DNA of 64,000 nucleotides, from NCBI GenBank assembly GCA_902728285.1, contig CACVBU010000741.1, forward strand, positions 186,001 to 250,000, given 5' to 3'. Position numbers and translations under genes: made by a program. Under the pieces are notes generated by a model, which was given only the letters and a program-made list of their open reading frames with translations, ran no database searches and had not been told where the DNA came from. This document shows, one piece after another, positions 4,966 to 56,445 of this stretch; position 1 is the stretch's first letter; every line of letters starts with the position of its first letter. This stretch comes from Clytia hemisphaerica. Taxonomy: Eukaryota; Cnidaria; Hydrozoa; Leptothecata; Clytiidae.

Positions 4966-4969
4966 AGTC

Positions 4970-9498: not shown

Positions 9499-9504
9499 CT
9501 TAAC

Positions 9505-10850: not shown

Positions 10851-10856
10851 AGTCTA

Positions 10857-11225: not shown

Positions 11226-11228
11226 CCT

Positions 11229-15662: not shown

Positions 15663-15693
15663 CTGGAGAAATTTTGTTGGTCTTGGCTGGGAG
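15663..15693 (+). promoter_or_regulatory. BEL/Pao element 1 polypurine tract region
   Basis: Short spacer between the pol stop and the 3' LTR. The purine-rich ggctgggag abutting TG is the likely primer for plus-strand DNA synthesis. Confidence 0.6.
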
Positions 15694-23477: not shown

Positions 23478-24248
23478 CTAACCTACACGCATTAGAGCAT
23501 AGCATGCTGGACAACGTGGCATTTTGATTTTAACATTATTCAATACAACTTCAAGTGGAGGGATCACCGTATCCGCTTTATAGTAAAGCTGGTTACTTTT
23601 TACGCTTAACCAGTTCTTAGAATCGACTTTATAATCCCACGTTCCTACTCGGTTCCAATTAGCATTACCGTACCAAATTGCTACTGCTCTGTGGTCACTC
23701 GTTCTCCATTCTTGGTAGTAGCCATGTTCCTTAGTAAACGAGTCCAAGGCTTTTCGATAAAGTCCTGATGTCCAGTGTTTACTGTCTATAAACATATCGA
23801 TATCCTCGTCGTAATGAAGAATGCTTTTGGAGCGGGCGTAACTCATTACAAAACCACCGACTAAAAAATACGACACATTATGATTGTTTAAATGGGTACT
23901 AAGCTTCTCCAACACATCCATCATTTTGCGGCGACAGCACGGCGGCGTATCGATTCTCATTTTACGTTTGGTGTCGTAAATGGCGCCAGGATCACAATGT
24001 CTCGTGTATTTTGTACAGCCCAAGTTTGTTATTGTTCCATCTGTGTGAACGATCCATTTGACTCTCTTTTGGGGAACTTTCTTTTTGTTATAAAATAACA
24101 TAACATCTCGAAACAAACTTTCGTAAAGTTTGTTGCATTTGTCATCTTCCAAATGTTGGTTGTATTCTTGTAATTCGTATACCGCCCAATCAGCCGGTGA
24201 AAAAACAAACAATTCTGAATCCAATAACTCAAACAAATGCCCAAACAC
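23478..24248 (-). CDS. LicD/fukutin-family exon (nucleotidyltransferase fold)
   Basis: About 256 codons are open between a stop 12 bases upstream of 24248 and the TAG at 23478. The core has DTPPCCRRKMMDVL, then YFLVGGFVMSYARSKS and DEDIDMFI, matching the cysteine-pair, GG...R and acidic motifs of LicD/fukutin-type proteins, which transfer phosphosugar or phosphocholine groups, usually in the Golgi in animals. The end, CPACYALMR, sits where relatives go on to a YG motif, and ATGCGT|GTAGGT there is a candidate splice donor. The 5' end begins with GTG, so this is probably an internal exon. Flanking exons were not found. Confidence 0.72.
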   Translation of the reverse strand: MFGHLFELLDSELFVFSPADWAVYELQEYNQHLEDDKCNKLYESLFRDVMLFYNKKKVPQKRVKWIVHTDGTITNLGCTKYTRHCDPGAIYDTKRKMRIDTPPCCRRKMMDVLEKLSTHLNNHNVSYFLVGGFVMSYARSKSILHYDEDIDMFIDSKHWTSGLYRKALDSFTKEHGYYQEWRTSDHRAVAIWYGNANWNRVGTWDYKVDSKNWLSVKSNQLYYKADTVIPPLEVVLNNVKIKMPRCPACYALMRVG

Positions 24249-24249
24249 T

Positions 24250-25084
24250 TGAAGTTTTCATTCGCTAATATATAGCTCTTTTAAGTTTACGATGATACCA
24301 CAAGGGCTCGTAAAAGCCAGGACACCTGAAAAAATAATAATTCGAAAGTCAAAGATTATACTTCTTAGAATTAGAATTATATAAAAAATTTCAAAAAACA
24401 CTCAAAAGAGTGATTTTTCAAAAAGCTGAGGAAATTTTGTCTCAACTGGCACTTTGAATCAGCAAAAGTTGAATGTATATCTAGAATTTATTAATGATCA
24501 AAGTTAGTTAATTACTGAAAATATCTAAATCACAGCTCTTTTTAAATGAGTAGATGATGAAAAATTTCACATTTTGAAAAATTAAAAAATGAACCACTAA
24601 TGATATAGTAATAGAACCACTATTAGCAAAAAAGGATAAAAGAAATGCCAAAAAAGGAAGTGGTGCTTCTAAACCAGCACTCTACTTCAATTTGAATTGA
24701 GTTTAATACCACCGTTTAACGGGGGCATTCGGGCGGGTGATTGAAAAAACCACTGACATGGTCGTCACAGAATCTGTAAAATTCACAGTGAAAAATCCTT
24801 GTTTAAAAAAATTAAATAAATAAATAATAATTAAATAAATAACACTGCCACGGGCTTAAAACACCGTAAGTCTTCAAAAGGGCTATATCATTACCTTTTT
24901 TTTAAACACGTCTTTTCTATAAGAACCAATAATAAATGATTGTTCTTGTAAGAAGTGTGTACTTTAATTAGATCAATTTTTTGCAAGATTGATTTTTTTT
25001 GTCAGATTGGAGGAACAAATGCATTTTCAGTTGTTTTTTTGACCCGCTTAAATCTTGCAAAAAGTATCGGATTAAAGTACAGTC
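24250..25084. other. spacer with a 35-bp-arm hairpin
   Basis: No gene. The sequence gtactttaattagatcaatt...ttgcaagatt at 24957-24993 is complemented imperfectly by aatcttgcaaaaagtat...attaaagtac at 25050-25081, giving a hairpin with a loop of about 55 bp. An (aaat)n patch lies at 24812-24842. Confidence 0.5.
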
Positions 25085-28915: not shown

Positions 28916-29102
28916 AATTTTAGTTCTGATTGCCATTTCAACCTTAAAGTCACTTATGGACTTTGGAGGAAAATGCTTGGAAATTTTCAATTTTAGCAAT
29001 ATTTGTTTCTTCAAGAATCCGCCTGCTGCATAATTGAAAATAAAATATGTAAAAATACAAAAATGTTTTGAAATGATTTGAGTCTTGACATTGAATTCGG
29101 AG

Positions 29103-32100
29103 AAATTTTTGTCAATGCTGTTCACAATAATTGTCACATTATTGTTTGTTTGTGTGCAAGCCAACATTTCAAATTCTTGAAACTGGAACCCATCAGTTTT
29201 GCAATGGAATAGTATCAATATGAAGCATGGAATCCGAATATATCTTTCCTGATCTATCCATGTTCACGTGGTAGAGGTTGTTTGTGCTTTAGTTCTTTAT
29301 CCTTCAGAATGGTATACTTTTATTTGGCACTGTTTTCCCGGAATTCCTTTTTGTGATTTTTCATTTGAGAGTTTTGGTCAATGATGTCTACAATAATTGT
29401 CATATTGTTTGTTTGTGTGCAAGCCAACATTTCGAATTCTTTAAACTGGAACCATCAGTTTTGCAATGGAATTCTTGAAACAGGAACCCATCAGTTTTGC
29501 AATGGAATTCTTGAAACTGGAACCCATCAGCTTTGCAATGGAATTCTTGAAACTGGAACCCATCAGCTTTGCAATGGAATAGTATCAATATGAAGCATGG
29601 AATTTGAATACACCCATCCTGATCTATCCATGTTCACGTGGTAGAGATCGTTTGTGCTTTAGTTCTTTATCCTTCAGAATGACATACTTTCATTGGCACT
29701 GTTTTCCCGGAATTCCTTTTTGTGATTATTCATTTGAGGAGTTTTTGTCAATGATGTCTACAATAATTGTCATATTGTTTGTTTGTGTGCAAGCCAACAT
29801 TTCAAATTCTTGAAACTGGAACCCATCAGTTTTGCAATGGAATAGTATCAATATGAAGCATGGAATCCGAATATATCTTTCCTGATCTATCCATGTTCAC
29901 GTGGTAGAGGTTGTTTGTGCTTTAGTTCTTTATCCTTCAGAATGGTATACTTTTATTTGGCACTGTTTTCCCGGAATTCCTTTTTGTGATTATTCATTTG
30001 AGGAGTTTTTGTCAATGATGTCTACAATAATTGTCATATTGTTTGTTTGTGTGCAAGCCAACATTTCAAATTCTTGAAACTGGAACCCATCAGTTTTGCA
30101 ATGGAATAGTATCAATATGAAGCATGGAATCCGAATATATCTTTCCTGATCTATCCATGTTCACGTGGTAGAGGTTGTTTGTGCTTTAGTTCTTTATCCT
30201 TCAGAATGGTATACTTTTATTTGGCACTGTTTTCCCGGAATTCCTTTTGTGATTTTTCATTTGAGGAGTTTTTGTCAATGATGTCTACAATAATTGTCAT
30301 ATTGTTTGTTTGTGTGCAAGCCAACATTTCGAATTCTTTAAACTGGAACCCATCAGTTTTGCAATGGAATTCTTGAAACAGGAACCCATCAGTTTTGCAA
30401 TGGAATTCTTGAAACTGGAACCCATCAGCTTTGCAATGGAATTCTTGAAACTGGAACCCATCAGCTTTGCAATGGAATAGTATCAATATGAAGCATGGAA
30501 TTTGAATACACCCATCCTGATCTATCCATGTTCACGTGGTAGAGATCGTTTGTGCTTTAGTTCTTTATCCTTCAGAATGACATACTTTCATTTGGCACTG
30601 TTTTCCCGGAATTCCTTTTTGTGATTATTCATTTGAGGAGTTTTTGTCAATGATGTCTACAATAATTATCACATTGTTTGTTTGTGTGCAAGCCAACATT
30701 TCAAATTCTTGAAACTGGAACCCATCAGCTTTGCAATGGAATAGTATCAATATGAAGCATGGAATCCGAATATATCTTTCCTGATCTATCCATGTTCACG
30801 TGGTAGAGGTTGTTTGTGCTTTAGTTCTTTATCCTTCAGAATGGTATACTTTTATTTGGCACTGTTTTCCCGGAATTCCTTTTTGTGATTTTTCATTTGA
30901 GGAGTTTTTGTCAATGATGTCTACAATAATTGTCATATTGTTTGTTTGTGTGCAAGCCAACATTTCGAATTCTTTAAACTGGAACCCATCAGCTTTGCAA
31001 TGGAATTCTTGAAACAGGAACCCATCAGTTTTGCAATGGAATTCTTGAAACTGGAACCCATCAGCTTTGCAATGGAATTCTTGAAACTGGAACCCATCAG
31101 CTTTGCATGGAATAGTATCAATATGAAGCATGGAATTTGAATACACCCATCCTGATCTATCCATGTTCACGTGGTAGAGATCGTTTGTGCTTTAGTTCTT
31201 TATCCTTCAGAATGACATACTTTCATTTGGCACTGTTTTCCCGGAATTCCTTTTTGTGATTATTCATTTGAGGAGTTTTTGTCAATGATGTCTACAATAA
31301 TTGTCATATTGTTTGTTTGTGTGCAAGCCAACATTTCAAATTCTTGAAACTGGAACCCATCAGTTTTGCAATGGAATAGTATCAATATGAAGCATGGAAT
31401 CCGAATATATCTTTCCTGATCTATCCATGTTCACGTGGTAGAGGTTGTTTTGTGCTTTAGTTCTTTATCCTTCAGAATGGTATACTTTTATTTGGCACTG
31501 TTTTCCCGGAATTCTTTTTGTGATTATTCATTTGAGGAGTTTTGTCAATGATGTCTACAATAATGTCATATTGTTTGTTTGTGTGCAAGCCAACATTTCA
31601 AATTCTTGAAACTGGAACCCATCAGTTTTGCAATGGAATAGTATCAATATGAAGCATGGAATCCGAATATATCTTTCCTGATCTATCCATGTTCACGTGG
31701 TAGAGGTTGTTTGTGCTTTAGTTCTTTATCCTTCAGAATGGTATACTTTTATTTGGCACTGTTTTCCCGGAATTCCTTTTTGTGATTTTTCATTTGAGGA
31801 GTTTTTGTCAATGATGTCTACAATAATTGTCATATTGTTTGTTTGTGTGCAAGCCAACATTTCGAATTCTTTAAACTGGAACCCATCAGTTTTGCAATGG
31901 AATTCTTGAAACAGGAACCCATCAGTTTTGCAATGGAATTCTTGAAACTGGAACCCATCAGCTTTGCAATGGAATTCTTGAAACTGGAACCCATCAGCTT
32001 TGCAATGGAATAGTATCAATATGAAGCATGGAATTTGAATACACCCATCCTGATCTATCCATGTTCACGTGGTAGAGATCGTTTGTGCTTTAGTTCTTTA

Positions 32101-32345
32101 TCCTTCAGAATGACATACTTTCATTTGGCACTGTTTTCCCGGAATTCCTTTTTGTGATTATTCATTTGAGGAGTTTTTGTCAATGATGTCTACAATAATT
32201 GTCATATTGTTTGTTTGTGTGCAAGCCAACATTTCAAATTCTTGAAACTGGAACCCATCAGCTTTGCAATGGAATTCTTTAAACTGGAACTCATCAGTTT
32301 TGCAACGAAATTCTTGAAACTGGAACCCATCAGCTTTGTAATGGA
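29103..32345 (+). repeat. 3.2-kb minisatellite with short and long monomers (higher-order)
   Basis: About eleven monomers share a core (gtttgtttgtgtgcaagcca). Short monomers (~262 bp) hold one copy of a 36-bp submotif (cttgaaactggaacccatca...gcaatggaatt); long monomers (~370 bp) hold four. Long ones start near 29405, 30300, 30940 and 31835, spaced ~895, ~640 and ~895, so the order is S-L-S-S-L-S-L-S-S-L-S'. The two types also differ in the flank (gagatcg/gacatac after L, gaggttg/ggtatac after S). Open frames here are repeat artefacts. Confidence 0.9.
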
Positions 32346-32542
32346 ATAATATAAATATTATTGATATTAATGCATTGATATTAATGCGATTGCCATCATG
32401 TCAGCCAGTCGGTCAGTATTATTAGCTTGCTTAACCTTTGCTAAATAAATACACTTGCAGTACCAAACAGCATATGGCCAAAGTATAGTGAGTTTTGAAA
32501 AAGAGTAAATTGAAAAAGTTTATATAAAAATGTATTATACCT

Positions 32543-36726: not shown

Positions 36727-36791
36727 TCTTCTAGGCCATCTCCTTTTGAGAAATGTTACCTCCTTTCGAAATTAAGTGTTCGTACCTTTTT

Positions 36792-37842
36792 GGACCTGGA
36801 GGTCCTATAAATTAACCTTTGTCCGTCCGTCCGTTTGTCCGTCCATCTGTTACCAGCTTTTCACAAGATTGGCTCATTAGTTTTTTCTGATTTTTGGCAC
36901 AATGATGCAAAATGGTAATGCCCAAAATGTGACGGAGCCCGATTTTCGAAAAAAAATCATTTCCAGCCGAAAATGCCGGAAAAAACGTTTTTTTGGCACT
37001 TTCTCGAGATTTCATCATTAGTTTTTTCAGATTTTTTGCACAAAGATGCGTATTAGCAATGCCCAAAACATGGCAGAGTCTGATTTTTGAGAACAATTCT
37101 TTTCCGGCCGAAAATGCCGGAAATATGCCGGAAATCGCCGTTTTTGCAGATTTTCATCGGACTTTTTCCTTATACTACGTTGTTTTTTCACACAAAAACA
37201 TTATAAATAGCAATGTCCACGATCAAGCATGGTTCAATTGTCGATAAAACTGATTTTTGAAGCCGGAACTTTCTAAAAATTGCTGGAACAGCCGATTTTC
37301 GCCGGAAAAACGGTATTTCTTGAATTTCTCGAGCTGTACTTTACATTTTTTTATGAAATTTTGCACACTGATGTAAAATGACAATACCTAAAAAGTGACG
37401 GAGCCCGATTTTCGAAAAAGATTTTTTTCGACCGAAAATGCCGGAAATATGCCGGAAAAACTGTTTTTTTGGCATTTTCTCGAGATTTTCTCATTAGTTT
37501 TTTCTGATTTTTTGCAGAAAGATGCGTATTCGCAATGCTCAAAACATGGCTGAGTTCGATTTTTGAGAAATTTGTTTTTCAAGATGAAAATTCCAGAAAT
37601 CGCCGTTTTTGCAGATTTTCATTAGATTTTTTCCTTGTATTTCTATGTTTTTGACACAAAAACATTATTGATAACAATGCTCACCATCAAGCATGATTCA
37701 ATTGTCAATAAAACTGATTTTTGCGACCAGAACTTTCTATTTATTTTTTCCCTACAACCCTTCCCTCTCCCCTTATCAACAATCAATGATGAATTTATGT
37801 CGTTATGCATTTTCGCTAAACGCTATATTTTCTGACTGATTT
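36792..37842 (+). repeat. Y repeat, copy 1 (GGACCT end, internal duplication)
   Basis: Starts ggacctggaggtcctataaa, then a tccg microsatellite (36822-36845), then two ~470-bp tandem units keyed by gtgacggagcccgattttcg (36930, 37397). It lacks a recognisable AGGTAGGTCC right end and abuts copy 2. No coding content is supported; frames on both strands follow the repeat. Confidence 0.75.
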
Positions 37843-37844
37843 TT

Positions 37845-38366
37845 GGACCTACCTGGAGGTCCTATAAATTAACCTGTGTTCGTCCGTCCGTCCGTCCGTC
37901 CGTCTGTTACCAACTTTTCTCAGGATTGAATCATTTGGGCAAATTTGGGCCAAAAAACGGCTAAAAAACGGGGTTTTGTGAAAAATTGGATCATTAATTT
38001 TTTCTGATTTTTTGCATGAAAGTAGGGTACCATCATAGGTAAAAGATGGCTGAAGCAGATTTTTGCAAAAAAATTTTGTGGGCTCAAAAAACGCATGTTT
38101 ATCTATAAGAGTCACTTGTAATAAGCATACATCAATGTTCTTAGTCAAATTACTCAATTTTTATATGAGAAAGATGTTTTTTTGCTCATGAGGCCTTACT
38201 GTTGAAGAATATGTGTGTTTAGACAGGAAATTTGGGTTGCTTGGCGTGTTTTTATAAAAAAACTGGCCAAATTCGATATTTTTTTATAAGCACATTATCA
38301 ATTACTTAGGTATTAGCTTTTCTCGAGATTGGCTCTTTCATTCTTTATGATTTATTGCACAAACAT
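37845..38366 (+). repeat. Y repeat, copy 2 left part (split by BEL/Pao element 2)
   Basis: Starts ggacctacctggaggtccta and a long (tccg)n run at 37880-37902. It breaks at aacat (38362-38366), the target of BEL/Pao element 2, and resumes at 47222. Confidence 0.8.
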
Positions 38367-38764
38367 TGTCACAGCATCAGCTGCAGTTTTCAGTTTTTTG
38401 TCTTTCTGGCCTTTTCAGCTTTTTCTGTGTTTTGCCCTTTTTGGCCATTTTTCTGTCTGGTCTGTGTTTTGTTCTCTGTTTTTGCATTTTTGGGATTTTC
38501 AGTGTTTTTGGACATTTTCAATTAATTTATGTTAATTTATGTCAATTTATTCAATAATATTCATTTATAAATTTTTGGTCTGTATTTTATACACAAGTTG
38601 ATAAATAGCAGTGCCATTCTCAGTTTTTGCATTCATTCCAAAAGGAGCACTTGAAGGGTGAACATCAATTTTCCAAATTTCAACTTTCAACAAGACTTAG
38701 TCATTCAATTCAAATATGACTTAGTCACACATTTTTCTCACCTTCATTTGCCCCTGACCCAACA
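38367..38764 (+). repeat. BEL/Pao element 2, 5' LTR
   Basis: 398 bp. Compared with the 3' LTR it lacks about 45 bp around 38555 (tttcaaatagtatatgtcaa is present at about 46976 only). Otherwise nearly identical. Confidence 0.92.
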
Positions 38765-38774
38765 TTCGAACAGT
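38765..38774 (+). promoter_or_regulatory. primer-site candidate of BEL/Pao element 2
   Basis: ttcgaacag follows the LTR and matches the element 1 leader (ttcaaacag) in eight of nine positions; the sequence then changes at once into the inverted segment. Conservation of just these bases next to the LTR supports a primer function. Confidence 0.45.
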
Positions 38775-38960
38775 GAAATCACAGCATCCTGTGTCGTAGA
38801 ATGCAGTGAATTGTTTGTTGCCAACAAGTATTGATTGGAGCATGAAGATAGCCTCTGGATCCTCATCTGTGTCGATTGAGTGAAAGGTCAGCTTGTTGCA
38901 CAACTGAACTTGGTGAACTGGTTGATCATCTTTCTCCGAACTTGTGGCAAGTAACTGTGG
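38775..38960 (-). pseudogene. inverted BEL/Pao protease fragment
   Basis: On the minus strand one frame reads DPQLLATSS, then VQLCNKLTFHSID and SILVGNKQFTAFYDTGCCDF, matching the protease entry region of element 1 (NDQLLAKY and VFFDSGCSDF) with the D-T/S-G catalytic triad. It ends abruptly at the leader of element 2. The protease is missing from the sense-strand pol, so this block may be the lost piece (or a piece from a relative) in inverse orientation. Confidence 0.75.
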
Positions 38961-39334
38961 ATCTGAGGAGCTGCTTTTGGTGCTATATGTATATGCGTAT
39001 CATGTGAATCTTCTCTATAGGTCGTAGGTAAACAATGATACGTTCCACTGTCAGACTCTCTTATATCAGGCAGTATAAGTTTCCATGGTTTCTTGAAGTG
39101 ATAAGGGCGACCAATTCCTTCGAAGTAACGCTCTATTACCCATACGTTGTTGTCTTTACGCCAAAGAAACCCAACATTTTTGAAGGGTGCATTGATACAA
39201 GTCAACACATAATCTGTACGATTGTTCTTTCGTTGTATAATCCTAAGGGCTGCCCTCTTCTTTTTTTTCTCCTTCTGCTGCGACATCCCCTGAATTACAA
39301 TCAAAAAAATTATGACAAACAAGTTGATTTTCAT
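38888..39334 (-). CDS. intronless secreted Ig-domain ORF within BEL/Pao element 2
   Basis: 148 codons from ATG. Residues 1-20 (MKINLFVIIFLIVIQG) look like a signal peptide, followed by a Lys-rich linker. Residues 40-101 form a V/I-set-like Ig domain: Cys46, Trp58 in GFLWRKD, and DSGTYHC ending at Cys101. From about residue 121 the ORF runs in another frame through the inverted protease-linker DNA, so the tail (to TKFSCATS) is probably not native. No TM segment is seen. Host Ig exons are usually split after the signal peptide; here both parts are uninterrupted, which suggests a retrocopied or captured host sequence. Expression is unknown. Confidence 0.65.
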   Translation of the reverse strand: MKINLFVIIFLIVIQGMSQQKEKKKKRAALRIIQRKNNRTDYVLTCINAPFKNVGFLWRKDNNVWVIERYFEGIGRPYHFKKPWKLILPDIRESDSGTYHCLPTTYREDSHDTHIHIAPKAAPQIHSYLPQVRRKMINQFTKFSCATS

Positions 39335-39537
39335 CGTACCAGCAACTGCTCCAATGAAAAAGTATGTTATACTACACGTTGCAATGTCTTCTTAACCCTT
39401 TGAGTGCCAGGGTCCTTTTTTCTAAGTTTTTTTTTTTTTTAAATCACTAGTGTACTACGAAGCGATAAACGTGAGATGGGCGTGAGATACATACACTCTG
39501 GTACAGAGTAGCTCGACACTCGCTTGCTTCTTACTCA
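39335..39537. other. junction segment of BEL/Pao element 2
   Basis: Between the antisense ORF and the gag fragment. It contains ttaaccctttgagtgcca (about 39394), a phrase seen at ends of TTAA-duplicating elements, but no matching opposite end was found. The T-tract at 39420-39438 is simple sequence. Confidence 0.4.
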
Positions 39538-39978
39538 GACTCTGTTCCCCAAACACTTCAAGCTGAACTTGTCAAGAATAATCACCTTGGCGGCCAAGCC
39601 TTATCTCTGGTTCAAACCATCGATTGTATCTCCGAAATATGGGATCGTCTAAAAACTGTGTTTGGAGACAAACAAATTTTACTCCAACATAAACTTCAAG
39701 GCTTATACAAGATTGAACAAAAATCCAAAGATCCACTGAAGATCATTGACTTTCTATCACAACTAACAAATGCTATGCGAGATCTAATGAGCCTTGCATA
39801 TAGCCATGACATTGAAAACGAACTCTACTTCAGCGATGCAATCAACCAAATCACTCAGATGCTTGGTGAACAACGCATGATGAGATGGCTCAACCTATCC
39901 TGTGAGGTACCAAAGAGAGGAAATCTCAAAGAGGTTACAAGAACTTATCTATTTGCGCCCAAATATGACAATGTATAA
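39538..39978 (+). pseudogene. gag: BEL/Pao element 2 Gag fragment
   Basis: The frame reads from about AELVKNNHLGGQALSLVQT through the WDRLKTVFGDKQILLQHKL block to a stop at 39978. It aligns with the element 1 Gag region around WRHLEDAFGDAKIMLHKKL. The N-terminal half of Gag and the zinc knuckle are missing. A frame change near 39900 moves the probable Gag continuation (EEISKRLQELIYL) into the pol frame. Confidence 0.75.
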
Positions 39979-42900
39979 TGAACTTAAAATAAATTATACA
40001 GCCTTACAAGACAAAAAGGAGGAATATGAGAGCAAACTCAATCAAGAACTGAAGTCCAAGTATGCAAGATATTTCCCGGAGGAAATATTCAAGATGCCAT
40101 CCGGACTAACCATCTACTCATCATGCTTCAGGAGCCCTGATGGATCAACTGGGGTCATTGGTGGACCTCATCCAGTGTTCAACAACATCAAGTATCATCA
40201 CTTCAATTCTACTCAGTTTGTAAAGAACCAACACAAGCTATTCCAGTTAGGGTACCACGTTAATCCTGACCTTCGTCTACTTGGATATACTGACAAACAA
40301 GCAGACATCTTCATCCCATCCAAATCAGCAATCGAAGAAGAATCAGAACACTTCAAACAATCTCAAGCCGTGGGCAGTGAATTCCTCTTCAGATGCATCA
40401 ACTGTCGTGGATGTCAGTCATGCAAGAATCTAAAATCTACTGATGAGGTTATGAGCGTGCAGGAGGAGGTTGAACAACACATCATCAATGAATCGATCGA
40501 TATCGACATATCTAATCAAACATCAACAGCACATCTACCTCTCCTAAACGACCCATCCATTTACCTATCACCAAACAGAAAAATTGCGCTTCAAGTCTAC
40601 AATCAACAATTGAGACGATTATCAAAACACCCAGAAGATAAACAGGATGTTTTGAAGTCTGAACAAAAGCTTCAAGCTCTTGGCTATGTGGAGTACGTAA
40701 AAAACCTCACACCTGAAATCCAGAAATCTCTTCACAATATCAATATTGCAAACTTCATCCCTTGGCGTGCAGTGTGGAAAGAGAATTCCATATCCACCCC
40801 ATGCAGAGTGGTATTCGATGCTTCTATGAAGACTGAAAGCGGATTCTCCCTCAACAGCATCATTGCCAAAGGACGTAACAATATGAACAAACTAATGGAA
40901 ATCTTCGTGCGGTGGAGGGGACATCAAATTGGTATACACACAGACGTTGCCAAAATGTACAATTCTATCAAGTTGGATCAATCACATTGGTGTCTGCAAC
41001 GCTATTTGTGGGAAGAAAACCTCAGTCCTGACAAGCCACCAGAGGAGAAGGTAATTAAAACCCTTATCTACGGTGTTAAATCTAGTGGAAATCAAGCCGA
41101 AAGAGCCCTCCGAGAAACAGCAAAAATTTTCAAAGACACCTACCCGGACGTTTTCAAAACTATCACAGAAGACGTTTACGTTGACGACTGCTTAACTGGC
41201 CAACCATCACTACCGAAAGCCAAACAACTAGCTGATCGACTTGAAATGGTTGTCAACCATGGCGGATTCTCGTTAAAAGGATTCACATTCTCCAATCAAC
41301 TACCACAAGAATCATTGACAAGCGACGGAAAATCAGTATCGGTGGCTGGTCACAAGTGGTTCCCAAAAGAAGATCAAATCTGTCTTGATATTCAGCAACT
41401 CAACTTCTCAAAGAAATATCGTGGGAAGAAACCAAAAGAGATCAAAGAAGTGCCAATCAATCTAACACGACGACAATGCGTCTCTAAAGCGTCAGAGGTA
41501 TTTGACATTTCTGGTCTTCTAACTCCAATCACCTCGACATTGAAAGTTGACCTTCATGATCTTGTTAGACGCAAGATGGACTGGGATGATATCTTACCGA
41601 ACGACCTTCGAAATCTCTGGTCATCACATTTTGAAATGATACAAGACATCAAATCAATCAGATTCAATCGAGCAATTGTGCCACTAGACGCAGTTGACCT
41701 CAACATCACCACATTGGATTTTGGCGACGCTAGCCAAAATCTGATATGTGCTTCAATCTACGCAAGATTCAAAAGGAAACAAGGCGACTATTCCTGTCAA
41801 CTCATATTTGCAAGATCACGACTTGTGCCAGACGATTACACCCAACCAAGAGGCGAGCTATACGCAGCACTTACCAACACTCATGCAAGTGAAGTGGTAA
41901 GAAAATCCTTCAATTCAACTCATTCTGAGAGCTTCAAATTCACTGATTCTCAGATCACACTCTATTGGATAACAAACATGACACTTCAGCTCAAACAATG
42001 GATTCGAAACCGTGTCAATGAGATACATCGTTTAACCAACATTGAATCATGGAAGTATGTGCAGTCAAGCGACATGATAGCTGATGTAGGAACAAGAAGA
42101 TGCACAACACTAGAGGATGTTGACCAATCATCTCAATGGATCAATGGCATGCCTTGGATGAAACAGGATGCATCTCAATTTCCAGCATCAACAGCAAAAC
42201 AAATCACTCTCGGTCAAGCTGAACTGGAACAAGCGCATAGAGAAGTCAAGAATCCTTCAACACATACTTGCAATGCCTACCACAGTCAAATGATCAATGA
42301 CGAATTCCTTAAACAAGCTCAACAAAGGTATCAATTCTCAAACTATCTTGTGGATCCAAACCGTCATTCGTTCTCTAAAGTTGTGAGAATCATTGCAATT
42401 GTCCAACGATACATCAAACTCCTTCGCATACCAAGAGAAGCGAAGACATTTCAACCAAAATTACAACCACACATTATTCTCACAGATGAAGAGATATCAC
42501 ATGCTGAGAAGTATTTCTTCCGCAAAGCAACGGGAGAAATCAAACAATTCGTCAAACAAAAGATTGGAAAAATCTCAATCGAAAAAGATGACATTCTCTA
42601 TCACATCGGACGCATCTTACCAACCGATTCTATAACTGTCGTTGGAAAGATGACGTCAACAATGAAAGACCTACAAGCAACATCATTCTGCGTACCAATC
42701 GCAGAAAAGTATTCACCGCTGGCCATCAGTATCATAAACGAGGTTCACTGGAACAGTTCAGTCAAACATTCTGGTGTCGAATCAACATGGCGTGAAATCC
42801 TAAAGAAAGCGTTCATCCTTGAAGGAAGATCCCTCGTTACCTTGATACGAACATCATGTCTGCGCTGTAGATACCTCAACAAACAGACAATTGCTGTGCA

Positions 42901-43903
42901 GATGGGTCCCTTATCACAAGACAACCTGGTCATCGCACCTGCATTCTACGTTTCACAAGTCGATCTTGCTGGCCCATTCTCAAGCTACTCTCAACACCAC
43001 AAGCGTACAACTGTAAAGATTTGGTTAGTTGTATTTTGCTGTGCCACAACCACAGCAATCAACATCAAAGTCATGGAAGATTATTCCACATCATCATTCC
43101 TGCAATCATTCACACGTTTCTCTTGTCAAGTTGGATACCCACACAAGCTTCTGACAGACGAAGGCGGACAACTTGTCAAAGCATGCGAAACAATGAGGCT
43201 CAACCTAACCGATATCAAATTTCAACTCCATCGTGACTTAAAAATCGATTTTGAAGTCTGTCCTGTTGGTGGTCACAACCATCATGGTCGTGTCGAAAGA
43301 AAGATACAGGCAGTCAAATCATCATTGGAGAAATCGATGCACCAAGACCGTCTTTCAATAATCCAATGGGAAACCATTGCTGCTGGTGTCGCCAATTCAA
43401 TCAACGACATGCCCATTGCTGTCCGAAACGTCAAAGGAAACTTTGAGATGGCAGACTTAATCACTCCAAACAGGTTACTACTCGGACGAAACAACAACCG
43501 TGGACCAAGTGGAACGTTATCAGTCCAAAATGACTTCGACAAGATGCTAAGAGCAAATCAGAAAATCCATGATGCATGGTTTGACTGCTGGCTAGTCTCC
43601 CATGTTCCTAACCTAATCGAACAACCAAAATGGTTCAAAACCAGCACAAACATGAAAGCTGGTGATATTGTGTTATTCACCAAACAGGACTCGGTCCTAT
43701 CCTCAACATATCAATACGGAATTGTGAAATCTGTTATCAACGATCGTGACAACAAAGTTCGCAAAGTGGTGGTTGAATACCAGAATGCAAATGAAAATGT
43801 TAAACGTGTCACTACTCGGTCTGTAAGATCTTTAATTCTCATACATGGAATTGATGAACTTGATATTTCAAAAGAACTTTTCAAATGCAATAATTCAATT
43901 TAA
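39902..43903 (+). CDS. pol: BEL/Pao element 2 Pol, protease deleted
   Basis: 1333 codons. The first ~50 residues are Gag-like, then the text jumps to KMPSGLTIY, which in element 1 lies ~230 codons after the start of the knuckle; knuckle and protease are deleted. The rest is intact: RT with YVDD at 41177, RNase H with DASQ, PRGELYAAL and FTDSQ, H2C2 integrase finger, integrase core with DLAGP, TDEGG and a GRVERKI Glu, and a C-terminal domain. It differs from element 1 throughout, so it is a separate family. Long open RT-integrase in a damaged element suggests either youth or mobilisation in trans. Confidence 0.9.
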   Translation: MRYQREEISKRLQELIYLRPNMTMYNELKINYTALQDKKEEYESKLNQELKSKYARYFPEEIFKMPSGLTIYSSCFRSPDGSTGVIGGPHPVFNNIKYHHFNSTQFVKNQHKLFQLGYHVNPDLRLLGYTDKQADIFIPSKSAIEEESEHFKQSQAVGSEFLFRCINCRGCQSCKNLKSTDEVMSVQEEVEQHIINESIDIDISNQTSTAHLPLLNDPSIYLSPNRKIALQVYNQQLRRLSKHPEDKQDVLKSEQKLQALGYVEYVKNLTPEIQKSLHNINIANFIPWRAVWKENSISTPCRVVFDASMKTESGFSLNSIIAKGRNNMNKLMEIFVRWRGHQIGIHTDVAKMYNSIKLDQSHWCLQRYLWEENLSPDKPPEEKVIKTLIYGVKSSGNQAERALRETAKIFKDTYPDVFKTITEDVYVDDCLTGQPSLPKAKQLADRLEMVVNHGGFSLKGFTFSNQLPQESLTSDGKSVSVAGHKWFPKEDQICLDIQQLNFSKKYRGKKPKEIKEVPINLTRRQCVSKASEVFDISGLLTPITSTLKVDLHDLVRRKMDWDDILPNDLRNLWSSHFEMIQDIKSIRFNRAIVPLDAVDLNITTLDFGDASQNLICASIYARFKRKQGDYSCQLIFARSRLVPDDYTQPRGELYAALTNTHASEVVRKSFNSTHSESFKFTDSQITLYWITNMTLQLKQWIRNRVNEIHRLTNIESWKYVQSSDMIADVGTRRCTTLEDVDQSSQWINGMPWMKQDASQFPASTAKQITLGQAELEQAHREVKNPSTHTCNAYHSQMINDEFLKQAQQRYQFSNYLVDPNRHSFSKVVRIIAIVQRYIKLLRIPREAKTFQPKLQPHIILTDEEISHAEKYFFRKATGEIKQFVKQKIGKISIEKDDILYHIGRILPTDSITVVGKMTSTMKDLQATSFCVPIAEKYSPLAISIINEVHWNSSVKHSGVESTWREILKKAFILEGRSLVTLIRTSCLRCRYLNKQTIAVQMGPLSQDNLVIAPAFYVSQVDLAGPFSSYSQHHKRTTVKIWLVVFCCATTTAINIKVMEDYSTSSFLQSFTRFSCQVGYPHKLLTDEGGQLVKACETMRLNLTDIKFQLHRDLKIDFEVCPVGGHNHHGRVERKIQAVKSSLEKSMHQDRLSIIQWETIAAGVANSINDMPIAVRNVKGNFEMADLITPNRLLLGRNNNRGPSGTLSVQNDFDKMLRANQKIHDAWFDCWLVSHVPNLIEQPKWFKTSTNMKAGDIVLFTKQDSVLSSTYQYGIVKSVINDRDNKVRKVVVEYQNANENVKRVTTRSVRSLILIHGIDELDISKELFKCNNSI

Positions 43904-43963
43904 CTTGAGATATTTTTTCAATTCAATTTTTCAAATTAGTTTATTATTTATTTGTGGGGGGAG

Positions 43964-44054
43964 TGTCACAGCATCAGCTGCAGTTTTCAGTTTTTTGTCT
44001 TTCTGGCCTTTTCAGCTTTTTCTGTGTTTTGCCCTTTTTGGCCATTTTTCTGTC
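43964..44054 (+). repeat. BEL/Pao element 2, 3' LTR, first part
   Basis: Starts tgtcacagcatcagctgcag after a purine tract gtggggggag. It is interrupted after ttttctgtc by a TIR element. Confidence 0.92.
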
Positions 44055-46870
44055 CAGGGGCGTATCTAGGATTTTTAAGATACCCTGCAAAAAAGATTCA
44101 GCTATATATAGTGATTCAACTATATATAGTGTCTAAGGAGGGCCCACCATGGTTGGGCCCGACGGGCCAGAAAATTTTTGAATTTCGACCCTTTAGATTG
44201 GCTAAAACAGCCACCTTTTTATGCCCAATGTACCATGAACCAGAGATAAAGAATTAAAATTCATTTCATTTAAACACAAAATGAAGCTGGTAAAACTAAA
44301 ATCTGCCTCTGCCTCTAAAATATGGAATAAGTGAAGGAAAGAGAAAGGAGGTGTAAAAAAAAATAATAATAACTATCATGAATTTTTTAAAGAACTTTTT
44401 GAACTTTACACAAAAAAGTGAAAAATGATAGCAAAATAATACAATAGCACACAAAAGATTATAAATTATACAAAAATCTTTATCTGATCGTGATGATAGC
44501 AATAACAATAATAATAATATTTACCAAACTGTCTAAAAAGTTTTAATATAATTTTGATTCTTATTGTGTCAAATTTATTTATCTTATTGCTGCCAAAAGG
44601 TGACTTAAATAATTTCAAGCAGATTAATAATAAAAGCCTTTTGCCATTCAAATGAAAATTTAGAGAAAAAGAGCAAAACTATTTTATTCAGACTGCTCAA
44701 GAAAAGAGTATTTCATTAGAAAATTGATTAATGTGATGCATTAAAGTATCCAAAAATAGAATTTGTACTGAAGCTGAAATCTCTATAGTTGGTTCATCTT
44801 GAAATTTTATTCTAGCCCCATTCTGGTGTCTCGTTTGGAACTGTTTGCCAAATCAAGCAGAGAATCCTGTACCAGGGGTAAAAAGCCCCCAATCCGAATT
44901 GAAAACAAACCATATGTCATCAGAAACTCATTTATTCATTATGTACATAATGCAGCATGTTTTATGTTTGGTATCAAAATTCAGTTGTTGTGTTATAAAT
45001 TGTATACTATATATATACATTATGCATCCAAATTCATTTGCATTGGCAATTACATGTCAAAATCAAATCAAGATGTACTTTCCAGAGATGATATTACATG
45101 ACAAATATTGATATCCAGTTTACAGGGAAAATTTTGAATCCAAAAACTTCCAAGAAACTAAATGTTAGGTACACATCATCATTTTGATTGAATTATTCCA
45201 TTCTTTTGTTTCCTTTAAGTTAAATATGGTTTCACTCATCTTATTAGCAGACTTTGTCACTGTTACAAAGATTTCGTACCAACCACGTGAAGGTGCAAAA
45301 TAATCCATTGATCTAGGGGCTACTGGACAGTATGATGGCAACTAACCTGAAAGTATATAATGAAGAGGGAATTAGGACTTTTGCAAGCTACACGTCTACA
45401 TATTTAACAAACACAAAACAACAAAATTTAAGTCAAACGACAACTGGACAACCAATGAAATTAATCTTATATAATAACCGGCTGACTGTGGATAACCGCC
45501 AACCGTAATGCTTCATGACTGAGCCAATCTACTTAACTTATTGGATGGGTTTTTTTGGTTCTGAGAATAATACTTACAATTCAGGAAAAGTTCTGCACAC
45601 GTGCAAGGCATCGAAGTGTATCCATCAAAGAATTGTTGCCCACAAGATGGAGAGAAATGGAACTGTACAGGCAATTTCCATTTGGAAGAGAACTAAAACA
45701 AAATAGAGAAATCATTTTTAAGATTGTCGTGCAGTTTTTATGAGTACTTTTTTACAGTACTTGACTGGCAGGTGCTGGCCCGCAAACTAAACATAGTCAA
45801 ATACAATCTGTTTGTGTACCTCAAAATAGTGTGCGAAAAACCCACACAGATCTTTTTCTCTCCCCAGAAAAATTTTTTAACCGGCCAAAACATATTAAAA
45901 ACATTAGGGTGTCAAGGTCAGAATCACAAAATTTTCAATGTTATTTTTTTTTCTCTTATTTCAAAATAAAACCACAATAGGTTGGTTGTGTCCCTTTGCC
46001 TCTTAAATTGCCATGCCACAAATTCATCTCCTGTCGTCAACCTTTTCTTAGCCAGAGTGATTGGCCAAACAAACAGTAAGTACGTACCCCAATTGATCAA
46101 ATATCTTATAAATATTTCATGATTGGCCACTCACTCACCACACACAACAAGTGGTTTTGTTGATTACCAAAAATTATGACAAGTCATAGGCCATAGGCAG
46201 ATAAGTAGAGAAAGAGGGGGAAGGGAAGCAGTTTTTCCTGCACTTATCAGATTATAATTGATAACATGCAGGCATGAAAAATAATAGAAAAAATACCACA
46301 TACCTTACAGATTTGACTTTCCTTGTTGCAATGGATTTCAGAAGATAACCATAAGAAGAAAAACAAACATTGAGATGACCTTGATGGCAGCCCTCAGATG
46401 ACGAATTTGGAGAAGATCGAAAATGTGCAGGCTTCAAATTCTTCAGAATTTGCGACAAAATAGATAAAATCAGGACTGTCTATTCTGTTTTTTCTTCTCC
46501 AAGCATCTAAAGGCATTTGACGAGTCTTGACTTTTAACGTTTTGACACTAACAGCCATCAAATCCCGGGCAAACCCTGCATTTTGACCTCATCCAGGTCT
46601 TTCTACAAAATTTTGCAGGGTGCAGGCCTGCAAAACGCTTTTGTGCACAAAATCTAAAATACAGACTCGAATTCACGCTTCCTGTAACGCGACTTGATAA
46701 ACAGTTTTCTTATATTTACCGCGGACTTTAAGTCAGTAAAATAAATCTAATGACACTAACGAATGATCCGGAAAAACAACTCCGGGTAGGCTAAAAACAA
46801 GCTGCGACAAAAAAGACTCCGGAGCATACCCTGCGAGTGCATGTTTTGCAGGGGTGTCGCACCGCCCCTG
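44055..46870. mobile_element. TIR element (CAGGGGCG ends) in the 3' LTR
   Basis: It begins CAGGGGCGTATC and ends CACCGCCCCTG, giving short inverted repeats CAGGGGCG. CTGTC flanks both ends (44050-44054, 46871-46875), and the 5' LTR shows the uninterrupted site. CAGGGGCG ends resemble hAT elements, but a 5-bp duplication does not fit hAT (8 bp), so the family is open. No transposase is seen. A 17-bp direct repeat (tatatatagt type) lies at 44101-44130. Confidence 0.78.
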
Positions 46871-47221
46871 CTGTCTGGTCTGTGTTTTGTTCTCTGTTTT
46901 TGCATTTTTGGGATTTTCAGTGTTTTTGGACATTTTCAATTAATTTATGTTAATTTATGTCAATTTATTCAATAAATTTCAAATAGTATATGTCAACTTT
47001 GCTTTATTCTGCATTTTTTCATTTATAAATTTTTGGTCTGTATTTTATACACAAGTTGATAAATAGCAGTGCCATTCTCAGTTTTTGCATTCATTCCAAA
47101 AGGAGCACTTGAAGGGTGAACATCATTTTCCAAATTTCAACTTTCAACAAGACTTAGTCATTCAATTCAAATATGACTTAGTCACACATTTTTCTCACCT
47201 TCATTTGCCCCTGACCCAACA
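46871..47221 (+). repeat. BEL/Pao element 2, 3' LTR, second part
   Basis: Resumes ctgtctggtctgtgttttgt and runs to gacccaaca. It is followed directly by AACAT. Confidence 0.92.
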
Positions 47222-47773
47222 AACATGCATAACTATAAACCCTCGAATGTAACGGAGCCCGATTTTCGAAAGAAAATTTTTTTGGGCAAATTTGGGCCCA
47301 AAAACGGCTAAAAAACGGGGTTTTGTGAAAAATTGGATCATTAATTTTTTCTGATTTTTTTGCATGAAAGTAGGTAAAAGATGGCTGAAGCAGATTTTTG
47401 TAAAAGAAGAATTTTTCAGCTCAAAAAACGCATCTTTATCTATAAGAATCACTATTAATAAGCATACATCAATGTTCTTAGCCAAATTACTCAATTTTTT
47501 GATGAGATAGATGTTTGTTTTTGCTCACAAAGTCTTGAATATGAAAGAATATTTCAAGAGCATGAAATTTTGGTTTCTAAACGTTTTTTTTTATAAGAAA
47601 CAAACGACTAATTTTAATAGATCGTCACTATTTGTGTTCTGAATGATTGTTTAATGGTCACGTCACGTAGATGTCAATTATAAATGTGTTAAATGCATAA
47701 CCAGGTAGGTCCATAAAAGTATCACTTGTTTTCTCCTCGCATTGCTATCTAACTTTCATCATCAGGTAGGTCC
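47222..47773 (+). repeat. Y repeat, copy 2 right part
   Basis: Resumes aacatgcataactataaacc and gtaacggagcccgattttcg, then ends tcatcaggtaggtccattca; AGGTAGGTCC is the inverse of the GGACCTACCT at 37845. A second aggtaggtcc lies at 47703. Confidence 0.75.
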
Positions 47774-50119: not shown

Positions 50120-51166
50120 GGACCTACCTCCGGGTACCCCGGTGGAGGTTCTATAAATTAACCCATGTCCGTTCGTCTGTTCGTTCGTCTGTTCGTCCGT
50201 CCGTCCGTCTGTTACCAGCTTTTCTCAGGATTGGCTCATTAGTTTTTTCTGATTTTTTGCACAATGATGCAAAATCGCAATGCCCAGAACGTGACGGAGC
50301 CCGATTTTTGAGAAAAAATTTATTTGGGCAAATTTGGGCCAAAAACTGCCTAAAAATAGGGTTTTTTGGACTTTGTGCAAAATCCTGTCATTACTTTTTT
50401 CTGATTTTTTGTACAAAGATGGAGGGCAAGATTCTCTAAAGAATGGCTGAAGTGGTTTTCCCGGAAAATTCTTATTCGCCTTAAAAAACGGATTTTCGTA
50501 TTTTTGGGGAAATTCCCTTTAACCAAATAAGAAAATATAGCTTTTCTCAATGTTGACTCGTTATTTTTTTCTGATTTTTTGCACAACGATGCAAAATGGC
50601 AATGCCTAAAATGTGTCGGAGCCTGATTTTCGAGAAAAAATATATTTGGGCAAATTTGGGCCAAAAACTGCCTAAAAATAGGGTTTTTTGTACTTTGTGC
50701 AAAATCCTGTCATTACTTTTTTCTGATTTTTTGTATATAAAGATGGAGGGCAAGATTCTCTAAAGAATGGCTGAAGTGGTTTTTCCCGGGAAATTCTTAT
50801 TCGCCTTAAAAAACGGATTTTCGTATTTTTGGGGAAATTCCCTTTAACCAAATAAGAAAATATAGCTTTTCTCAATGTTGACTCGTAATTTTTTTCTGAT
50901 TTTTTGCACAATGATGCAAAATGGCAATGTCCAAAATGTGAAGGAGCCAGATTTTTAAGGAAAATCTTTTTGGGCAAATTTGGGCCAAAAACAGCTTAAA
51001 AGGTTTTTGGGCCTGAATGGTTTAAGTGATTTTCGTATTTGGGGAAATCCCTTTTTACCATTTTACATTATTCAACACACAAGCTTTATTTTTCCATTCT
51101 GAATTTTTGTACAATTATTGTCACTTTTTTCTTATTTTCATCTGATGTTAATCATTAGGTAGGTCC
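50120..51166 (+). repeat. Y repeat, copy 3, with both ends
   Basis: Starts GGACCTACCT at 50120 and ends AGGTAGGTCC at 51166, forming a 10-bp inverted repeat over about 1.05 kb. Near the left end is a ttcg/tccg microsatellite (50168-50206). Inside, a ~312-bp unit (gatggagggcaagattctct keyed at 50419 and 50744) is duplicated in tandem. It is probably a non-autonomous DNA element; no target duplication could be fixed. Confidence 0.75.
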
Positions 51167-51320
51167 ATTCAGCATGTTGCTTGTTTGTTCTCGTTTCTAA
51201 TTTTGTTAAAGTTACTATTTTGTTCTGTTTGTGGCCCTTCGTGGAAACAATTCCTCAGCTATCTAAAAGCTGTTGAATTTTTCGAAGCATGCCACGTAAA
51301 ATATTTGTTATCATTATTAT

Positions 51321-52000
51321 TAGAGCACTACTCGTCCGATTAACTCAAAAAACATCACACCATGGCCTCGTTTTGGCGGTTCTTTTCCTACTTTGCTTGT
51401 TTTTGAGCTTTCCTTTGAACCAATTCTAAAAGAAAAATCATAGTTTAGATTAGAGCACCACTCGTCCGATTAACTCAAAAAACATCACATGATGGCCTCA
51501 TTTTGGCGGTTCTTTTCCTACTTTGCTTGTTTTTGAGCTTTCCTTTGAACCAATTCTAAAAGAACAATCAAAGTTTGAATTAGAGCACCACTCGTCCGAT
51601 TAACTCAAAAAACATCACCCCATGGCCTCATTTTGGCAGTTCTTTTCCTACTTTGCTTGTTTTTGAGCTTTCCTTTGAACCAATTCTAAAAGAAAAATCA
51701 TAGTTTAAATTAGAGGACCACTCGTCCGATTAACTCAAAAAACTTCACCCATGGCCTCATTTTGGCGGTCCTTTTCCTACTTTGCTTGTTTTTGAGCTTT
51801 CCTTTGAACCAATTCTAAAAGAAAAATCATAGTTTAGATTAGAGCACTACTCGTCCGATTAACTCAAAAAAACCTTACCCATGGCCTCATTTTGGTGGTC
51901 CTTTTCCTACTTTGCTTGTTTTTGAGCTTTCCTTTGAACCAATTCTAAAAGAAAAATCATAGTTTAGATTAGAGCACCACTCGTCCGATTAACTCAATAG
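51321..52000 (+). repeat. 130-bp tandem array, about 5.3 units
   Basis: Units start tagagcaccactcgtccgat at 51321, 51450, 51579, 51709, 51838 and 51967, and include cctactttgcttgtttttga. Differences between units are few, so the array is young. No coding frame persists. Confidence 0.9.
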
Positions 52001-53878: not shown

Positions 53879-53982
53879 ACATAATTTACAATATAGTTTT
53901 TATAATATATAGATATAAAATTATAGATATAGATGGGCCATCATAGTTATGCTTTAAAGAAAAACTTTTATTTCGAACTCAC

Positions 53983-54036
53983 GTCAACATTGATATGGTG
54001 TAAACCATATGTTCCAATTGGAGGAGGGGAGCTGGC
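53983..54036 (-). CDS. poly-Pro exon copy 1 with splice donor
   Basis: The minus strand reads a Pro/Ala-rich run then PPPIGTYGLHHINVD and ends at GAC|GTGAGT (donor at 53981-53982). The same text recurs at 56378 and 56588. Confidence 0.4.
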
Positions 54037-56298
54037 GGCGGCGGTGGTGGTGGTGGTAGTGGTTGGGGCAGTTATGCCATCAGGAGTCGAAAAAATGGTA
54101 GTGGTTGAAGTGGTGGTGGTGTTGGTTGTCTTGGCAGTGAAGGTTTCTTGAAAGAAATCCCTTTCTGAGATATCTCTGACATATGACTGACGGTGGTGGT
54201 GGTAGTGGTTGGGGCAGTTATGCCATCAGGAGTCGAAAAAATGGTGGTGGTTGAAGTGGTGGTGGTGTTGGTTGTCTTAGCAGTGAAGGTTTCCTGAAAG
54301 AAATCCCTTTCTGAGATATCACTGACATATGACTGACGGTGGTGGTGTAGTGGTTGGGGCAGTTATGCCATCAGGAGTCGAAAAATGGTGGTGGTTGAAG
54401 TGGTGGTGGTGTTGGTTGTCTTGGCAGTGAAGGTTTCTTGAAAGAAATCCCTTTCTGAGATATCACTGACATATGACTGACGGCGGTGGTGGTAGTGGTT
54501 GGGGCAGTTATGCCATCAGGAGTCGAAAAAATGGTAGTGGTTGAAGTGGTGGTGGTGTTGGTTGTCTTAGCAGTGAAGGTTTCCTGAAAGAAATCCCTTT
54601 CTGAGATATCACTGACATATGACTGACGGTGGTGGTGGTAGTGGTTGGGGCAGTTATGCCATCAGGAGTCGAAAAAATGGTGGTGGTTGAAGTGGTGGTG
54701 GTGTTGGTTGTCTTGGCAGTGAAGGTTTCTTGAAAGAAATCCCTTTCTGAGATATCACTGACATATGACTGACGGCGGTGGTGGTAGTGGTTGGGGCAGT
54801 TATGCCATCAGGAGTCGAAAAAATGGTGGTGGTTGAAGTGGTGGTGGTGTTGGTTGTCTTGGCAGTGAAGGTTTCCTGAAAGAAATCCTTTCTGAGATAT
54901 CTCTGACATATGACTGACGGTGGGTGGTGGTAGTGGTTGGGGCAGTTATGCCATCAGGAGTCGAAAAATGGTAGTGGTTGAAGTGGTGGTGGTGTTTGTC
55001 TTGGCAGTGAAGGTTTCTTGAAAAAAATCCCTTTCTGAGATATCACTGACATATGACTGACGGTGGTGGTGGTAGTGGTTGGGGCAGTTATGCCATCAGG
55101 AGTTTAAAAATGGTGGTGGTTGAAGTGGTGGTGGTGTTGGTTGTCTTGGCAGTGAAGGTTTCTTGAAAGAAATCCCTTTCTGAGATATCACTGACATATG
55201 ACTGACGGCGGTGGTGGTAGTGGTTGGGCAGTTATGCCATCAGGAGTCGAAAAAATGGTAGTGGTTGAAGTGGTGGTGGTGTTGGTTGTCTTGGCAGTGA
55301 AGGTTTCTTGAAAGAAATCCCTTTCTGAGATATCACTGACATATGACTGACGGTGGTGGTGGTAGTGGTTGGGGCAGTTATGCCATCAGGAGTCGAAAAA
55401 ATGGTAGTGGTTGAAGTGGTGGTGGTGTTGGTTGTCTTGGCAGTGAAGGTTTCTTGAAAGAAATCCCTTTCTGAGATATCACTGACATATGACTGACGGT
55501 GGTGGTGGTAGTGGTTGGGGCAGTTATGCCATCAGGAGTCGAAAAAATGGTAGTGGTTGAAGTGGTGGTGGTGTTGGTTGTCTTGGCAGTGAAGGTTTCT
55601 TGAAAGAAATCCCTTTCTGAGATATCACTGACATATGACTGACGGTGGTGGTGGTAGTGGTTGGGGCAGTTATGCCATCAGGAGTCGAAAAAATGGTAGT
55701 GGTTGAAGTGGTGGTGGTGTGGTTTGTCTTGGCAGTGAAGGTTTCTTGAAAGAAATCCCTTTCTGAGATATCTCTGACATATGACTGACGGTGGTGGTGG
55801 TAGTGGCTGGGGCAGTTATGCCATCAGGAGTCGAAAAAATGGTGGTGGTTGAAGTGGTAGTGGTGTTGGTTGTCTTGGCAGTGAAGGTTTCTTGAAAGAA
55901 ATCCCTTTCTGAGATATCACTGACATATGACTGACGGCGGTGGTGGTAGTGGTTGGGGCAGTTATGCCATCAGGAGTCGAAAAAATGATAGTGGTTGAAG
56001 TGGTGGTGGTGTTGGTTGTCTTGGCAGTGAAGGTTTCTTGAAAGAAATCCCTTTCTGAGATATCACTGACATATGACTGACGGTGGTGGTGGTAGTGGTT
56101 GGGGCAGTTATGCCATCAGGAGTCGAAAAAATGGTGGTGGTTGAAGTGGTGGTGGTGTTGGTTGTCTTGGCAGTGAAGGTTTCTTGAAAGAAATCCCTTT
56201 CTGAGATATCACTGACATATGACTGACGGCGGTGGTGGTAGTGGTTGGGGCAGTTATGCCATCAGGAGTCGAAAAAATGGTGGTGGTTGAAGTGGTAG
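54037..56298 (-). repeat. 146-bp minisatellite, about 16 units, Thr-rich on the minus strand
   Basis: Units are keyed by ggcagttatgccatcaggag at ~145-146-bp spacing. Each minus-strand unit has an open Thr-rich stretch (AKTTNTTTTSTTT, then STPDGITAPTTTTT), but 146 is not a multiple of three, so the frame shifts between units unless part is spliced out. Within each unit gatttctttcaag could act as acceptor and several GT sites as weak donors. The array is similar to the Thr-rich exon at 56595-56800 (shared gccaagacaa), from which it probably expanded. Confidence 0.88.
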
Positions 56299-56377
56299 CT
56301 TAACTTAAACCTGTAAAATGAAAATAATGCCTACTATATAGTTATGCTTTAAAGAAAAACTTTTATAGCGAACTCAC
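56299..56377. other. array border
   Basis: Short spacer that includes ttatgctttaaagaaaaact, which also lies downstream of the other two poly-Pro copies (53947, 56553). Confidence 0.5.
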
Positions 56378-56445
56378 GTCAACATTAATATGGTGTAACC
56401 CATATCATGTTCCAATCGGAGGAGGGGAAGGTGACGGCGGAGGTG
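56378..56445 (-). CDS. poly-Pro exon copy 2 with splice donor
   Basis: Reads PPPPPPPSPSPPPIGT then, after a short insertion catgat that breaks the frame, GLHHINVD and donor GAC|GTGAGT (56376-56377). Probably dead by the insertion. Confidence 0.35.

Follow-up and report, generated by a model that had tools for sequence, protein, structure and literature searches.

How an antisense open reading frame (ORF) with a probably immunoglobulin (Ig)-like domain comes to lie within a retrotransposon is the question raised by a 64,000-nucleotide stretch of the genome of Clytia hemisphaerica (contig CACVBU010000741.1, positions 186,001 to 250,000; hereafter the window, with positions counted from its first letter). 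The window contains two BEL/Pao elements, BEL-A (1992-16556) and BEL-B, and the ORF lies in BEL-B, which is a defective chimera belonging to BEL/Pao. We consider it about an even call that BEL-B is a single chimeric copy generated by template switching during its last round of reverse transcription; its Ig piece is most likely an antisense, truncated retrocopy, unexpressed and functionless for the element.

Layout of the chimeric segment

A minus-strand insert sits between the 5′ long terminal repeat (LTR) plus primer-binding site of BEL-B (38367-38773) and the middle of its gag gene (~39538). On the minus strand, the Ig-like ORF is upstream of a protease fragment. The original prediction had described such an ORF and protease piece inside a BEL/Pao element, and its coordinates and landmarks hold. 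The segment comprises the following parts:

38765-38773, plus strand: putative primer-binding site TTCGAACAG; its BEL-A counterpart, TTCAAACAG, adjoins the LTR at 2854
38774-38985 (borders approximate), minus strand: inverted protease fragment (linker plus ...AIFMLQSILVGNKQFTAFYDTGCCDF), identified by blastp and tblastn to the BEL-A protease
38888-39334, minus strand: ORF of 148 codons with a hydrophobic N-terminus and a probable Ig-like domain, identified by landmarks and a sub-cutoff match to Pfam Ig_2
39392-39537, no strand assigned: spacer of ~145 bases from the Ig-like ORF to gag, beginning with TTAACCCTTTGAGTGCC

By blastp, the BEL-A protease is a homologue of the protease piece (E=8e-7), and the N-terminal protease part of BEL-A gave one good match, at 38867-38769 on the minus strand (tblastn, E=1.3e-6; next 0.14). 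The bases just after the LTR, which had earlier been counted as protease, are best read as a conserved primer-binding site, because TTCGAACAG of BEL-B and TTCAAACAG of BEL-A are the same at 8 of 9 positions although the two elements are 58% identical in the reverse transcriptase (RT) stretch and 39% in mid-gag. The inverted protease starts at, or directly past, the end of this site. As the protease frame could extend through ACTGTT, complementary to the last bases of the primer-binding site, a short microhomology at the junction is possible. The inverted piece had seemed to start at the LTR end, which suggested autointegration (integrase joining the LTR end to the protease) as a first idea; it was rejected because the nine post-LTR bases are taken up by the primer-binding site, so that the junction is not at the LTR end. 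With regard to self-priming of the Tf1 type, the BEL-B 5′ LTR offered no complement to the nine bases with fewer than three mismatches, and one in the BEL-A LTR, at 2797, had a single mismatch.

The spacer may be a 5′ untranslated region (UTR) or genomic flank. Its start, TTAACCCTTTGAGTGCC, is reminiscent of one end of a piggyBac-type element; a second such end was not found in the 64-kb window when up to 6 mismatches in 21 were allowed. An Ig gene borne by a piggyBac-like unit was rejected, since the end-like motif is single and directed away from the Ig-like ORF.

The Ig-like ORF

The minus-strand frame is open from stop to stop at 38888-39391 (167 codons). Its ATG is at 39334 and its stop at 38888-38890, leaving 148 codons, the last ~30 of which pass out of frame through the protease piece. 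The ORF looks truncated, because it ends soon after the domain, running out of frame into the protease. A strongly hydrophobic stretch at residues 3-15 (Kyte-Doolittle mean of 3.28 over 11 residues) shares one open frame with the Ig domain, whose landmarks are C46, W58, and LILPDIRESDSGTYHC101 (LxLxxIxxxDSGTYHC101); these Cys-Trp-DxGxYxC landmarks have the normal spacing of the Ig superfamily. A crude scan for splice signals on the minus strand of 38888-39537 yielded a single GTRAG resembling a donor, at 39534, and no run resembling an acceptor.

An open frame of at least 167 codons is by itself not unusual (mean of 0.48 per simulated 64 kb; 60 simulations). Three landmark patterns, all composed after the ORF had been seen, have one occurrence each in the window. 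By comparison, 300 simulated windows contained the canonical pattern (C + W + tail) 0 times and the tail motif LxLxxIxxxDxGxYxC by itself once, and 60 first-order Markov simulations contained a looser pattern (C..W..DxGxYxC with spacings) 0 times. When the 167 residues were compared with the PDB using phmmer, 32 matches were obtained at E<=1 (best 0.014, none <=0.001), 30 of which are Ig-superfamily members by name; the names of the other two (gamma chain, Dokki_15) are uninformative. The reversed ORF, a shorter control of 124 residues, gave six PDB matches, none with an Ig name.

The ORF is thus probably Ig-like, as judged from its sequence. It is termed Ig-like, not a member of the Ig superfamily, because its profile scores are under the curated cutoffs, and this weighs against the capture of an Ig gene proposed below. 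All Pfam Ig models stayed below gathering: Ig_2 (E=0.001, 19.7 bits vs 27), V-set (E=0.016, 15.9 bits vs 26), ig (E=0.037, 14.8 bits vs 21.8), and Ig_3 (E=0.072, 14 bits vs 30). The same ORF had unrelated sub-threshold Pfam matches (Staphostatin_A, 0.012; YxzE, 0.14), and unrelated sub-threshold matches of other open frames of the window were nearly as good (best HOOK, 0.0023). NCBIfam returned nothing for the ORF. AlphaFold2 models made without an alignment consisted mostly of strands, with a mean predicted local distance difference test score of 46.3 and 51.8, a confidence too poor to test an Ig fold. The better of these low-confidence models had 85 Foldseek matches in the PDB at E<=10, none at E<=0.001; the best (E 2.7) were a phospholipid-binding protein and galectin-3, which are not Ig proteins, and nanobody entries appeared only at E 5.8 and worse among the best 50 of the 85.

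The unexceptional length of the ORF, the sub-gathering Pfam scores with unrelated matches of similar strength, and the poor fold models, with non-Ig proteins as best PDB matches, would all suit a chance resemblance in non-coding DNA. The canonically spaced landmarks, absent from the 300 simulated windows, and the contrast between the named PDB matches of the ORF and those of its reversed, shorter counterpart argue against chance, which we regard as very improbable.

BEL-B, a young and defective element

The remainder of BEL-B and its borders are made up as follows:

38362-38366, plus strand: AACAT, left copy of the target-site duplication, repeated without change at 47222-47226 outside the other LTR
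38367-38764, plus strand: 5′ LTR (TGTCACAG...CCCAACA), matching 43964-44054 and 46871-47221
39538-39891, plus strand: middle part of gag (tblastn 39541-39891, E=1.25e-24)
39892-40057, plus strand: stretch without BEL-A match where the open frame switches from that of gag (open to 39978) to that of pol (open from 39884)
40058-43903, plus strand: pol downstream of the protease, with RT, RNase H, and integrase, in an open frame (tblastn to BEL-A; Pfam)
43954-43963, plus strand: presumed purine-rich tract before the 3′ LTR (GTGGGGGGAG)
43964-44054, plus strand: 3′ LTR, first part, from the LTR comparison
44055-46870, no strand assigned: DNA insert in the 3′ LTR, recognized by its ends CAGGGGCG...CGCCCCTG, with repeated CTGTC target
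46871-47221, plus strand: 3′ LTR, second part, from the LTR comparison
47222-47226, plus strand: target-site duplication AACAT, right copy, at the outer LTR edge

BEL-B has the two LTRs with a short target duplication, and the order of RT, RNase H, and integrase in pol, collinear with BEL-A, that mark a BEL/Pao element. In its pol, Peptidase_A17 (PF05380; 8.7e-31) and DUF5641 (2.2e-8) were above the Pfam cutoff, and Integrase_H2C2 (0.0075) was below. The first part of the 3′ LTR is identical to the 5′ LTR (91/91), and the second part aligned with 310 matches, 1 mismatch, and two indels, of 40 bp and 1 bp (41 gap columns); the 402 aligned positions of the whole pair thus show a single substitution, with the duplicated CTGTC, five bases of the 5′ LTR, entering both comparisons. 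The 40 bp are present in the 3′ LTR (46871-47221) and absent from the 5′ LTR (38453-38764), the rest being almost identical. Because its LTRs are nearly identical, BEL-B is young and, given the AACAT pair as well, the content between the LTRs therefore represents one insertion or was altered after insertion.

Eleven protein pieces of BEL-A were searched singly by tblastn against 38367-44054. They excluded the initial 30 residues of its pol frame and the final 45 residues of its gag frame, both in or next to the inverted repeats of an insert in BEL-A. Sense matches covered mid-gag (39541-39891), the part after the protease (40058-40651), RT (40652-41488), RNase H (41492-42232), integrase (42320-43333), and the C-terminal part (43337-43900). 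No credible match in 38367-44054 was found for gag-N (best E 0.06), gag-C (0.34), the C-terminal protease part (3.5), or the residues immediately preceding the protease (0.011, with the match inside pol). The complete gag and protease of an autonomous element are therefore lacking, and BEL-B is defective because sense gag-N, gag-C, and protease have no credible match.

As to the reference element itself, the LTRs of BEL-A (1992-2853 and 15694-16556) are 99.5% identical and AACTA is found on both flanks; its gag/protease boundary is broken by an insert of ~6.7 kb with inverted repeats at its bounds (4545-4772 and 10998-11225).

Further copies of the Ig-like ORF

According to the original prediction, the element family carries an Ig gene if other copies share the ORF. 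Such a family found no support: the ORF is present in one copy, in a defective element, with no other in the window, and nothing in BEL-A or the rest of the window matched it better than E=0.29. No relative was confirmed for the ORF in viral contigs, prokaryotic genome contigs, or phages, for the RT stretch in viral contigs, or for the alignment of the two RT stretches in viral contigs or prokaryotic genome contigs; these collections consist of viral or prokaryotic sequence with no animal genomes, so that their silence says little.

The same results bear on the idea of a BEL/Pao subfamily with an antisense Ig ORF as a stable addition, in the manner of certain plant elements. The ORF is intact, and antisense additional ORFs are reported to be relatively frequent in plant LTR elements (PMC7264820). 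BEL-B, by contrast, lacks gag-N, gag-C, and sense protease, the ORF enters the protease piece out of frame, and neither the window (with E=0.29 as the best match) nor the scanned collections, which hold no animal genomes, contained a relative; such a subfamily is highly unlikely. Hardly to be expected, too, is its more far-reaching version, in which the subfamily would mobilize an antisense Ig-domain gene with the captured 5′ region as its own promoter and spread a secreted Ig-type protein genome-wide.

Proposed origin by template switching or by repair

The order and orientations of the pieces, the LTRs, the target duplication, and the lost gag ends and protease are observed; template switching, an mRNA origin of the Ig piece, and its lack of function are inferred. 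Plus-strand strong-stop DNA, ending in the primer-binding site, would have annealed via a few bases to the sense RNA of the protease instead of to its proper partner, and the growing plus strand would have copied part of the protease backwards. It would next have jumped to a packaged host mRNA of an Ig-superfamily gene, with copying that began shortly beyond the Ig domain, passed the start codon, and went on towards the 5′ end. A further jump would have led to gag in the minus-strand cDNA, from mid-gag on, after which synthesis would have been completed normally and the chimeric product would have integrated with a 5-bp target duplication.

Both foreign pieces have minus polarity, which fits template switching because one growing plus strand that copies sense RNAs requires it. 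Every template on the proposed path would have a polarity available to reverse transcriptase in the particle; if the minus strand were the one being synthesized, two antisense templates would be required. Plus-strand transfer occurs where the primer-binding site ends, and the left junction coincides with this point or follows it immediately. Moreover, the chimeric stretch is enclosed by the LTR pair with its common AACAT, which would place a presumptive host piece between the LTRs of one insertion, as in LTR-mediated retrocopies. That LTR elements can switch onto packaged mRNA is well established (reviewed in PMC5408686). The original prediction had offered capture of a host Ig sequence and template switching as separate readings; both agree with the anatomy and could describe a single event.

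To the Pfam and Foldseek results are added further points on the opposing side. Three or four switches in one round are many, and the mRNA origin, with the intron loss that it implies, is presumptive. The microhomology at the left junction may be merely the primer-binding site itself, and the spacer, starting with TTAACCCTTT, could be genomic flank instead of 5′ UTR. Lastly, because LTRs should be identical at birth, the 40-bp difference between them shows at least one later change or recombination.

The main rival is that an ordinary BEL copy suffered a double-strand break in its 5′ internal region after insertion and was repaired with filler DNA, with another BEL copy (for the protease) and a genomic Ig locus as sources and with deletion of the leader and gag-N. 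Filler copying permits any orientation and explains the same layout with fewer constraints; a second deletion in the sense copy (gag-C to protease), the 40-bp indel between the LTRs, and the spacer TTAACCCTTT..., which presumably resembles genomic repeat DNA, would be in keeping with it. Less easily reconciled with repair are the youth of the element, a left break exactly at the end of the primer-binding site, and the passage from the hydrophobic N-terminus to the Ig domain without an intron-like gap, and we regard it as possible, if rather doubtful. Nested insertion, or a misassembly uniting pieces of two BEL elements and a gene fragment, would be in line with a window rich in repeats and nested elements; it is unlikely, considering that no LTR end was seen at the inner junctions and that the outer LTRs have the target duplication in common.

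Comparison with known captures

The crocodilian endogenous retrovirus CrocERV31 captured nectin3, an Ig-superfamily mRNA copy in an LTR element (PMC4299795); like BEL-B, it gained such a copy and lost a gene of its own. There, nectin3 replaces env, is found in six insertions in one species, and is under purifying selection (PMC4299795), whereas the BEL-B piece is in a BEL/Pao element, in one copy, on the 5′ side, antisense, and truncated. In LTR-mediated retroposition in animals (Tan and coworkers) and in maize Bs1 (both reviewed in PMC5408686), host sequence also lies within an LTR element and is explained by template switching at microsimilarities, and such retrocopies frequently hold only part of the mRNA (PMC5408686); unlike in these cases, an inverted protease piece stands between primer-binding site and host piece in BEL-B. 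Plant LTR elements such as Grande and Retand share with BEL-B an antisense additional ORF inside the element (PMC7264820), but in BEL-B it lies between primer-binding site and gag and was seen in one copy. Gene capture in animal LTR elements is likewise exemplified by the ORF3s of bdelloid rotifers (env-like, GDSL esterase, DEDDy exonuclease), which differ in being carried by element families (PMC5408684). When the literature was searched for LTR elements, BEL/Pao included, that contain an Ig domain, no BEL/Pao case was apparent from title and start of the abstract among the matches listed.

Capture of Ig-superfamily mRNA by an LTR element has thus already been published, and BEL-B probably adds a functionless case: the chimera is probably a one-off copying accident and not a working gene, and as a gene the Ig piece probably does nothing. 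If confirmed, it would be a BEL/Pao instance of host gene capture whose junctions have stayed fresh, and the position of the inverted protease, where the primer-binding site ends, would implicate second-strand transfer as the step that first went wrong.

Other features of the window

Neither Rfam (gathering threshold) nor ARAGORN returned anything in the window. The insert in the 3′ LTR of BEL-B (44055-46870) has short terminal inverted repeats and is probably a non-autonomous element, because its longest stop-to-stop frame is only 107 codons. Related A+T-rich repeat units flank BEL-B on both sides (36787-38262, 47245-47599, and 50143-51014); they contain a TTTTTTCTGATTTTTTGCA core and, in some, a CCGTCCGTCCGT leader. 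An open frame of 259 amino acids on the minus strand at 23481-24257, with no Pfam match above cutoff, looks like a protein of the LicD/fukutin type. Tandem arrays occupy 29100-32347, 51232-51997 (period of ~130 bases), and 53945-56426 (~146 bases).
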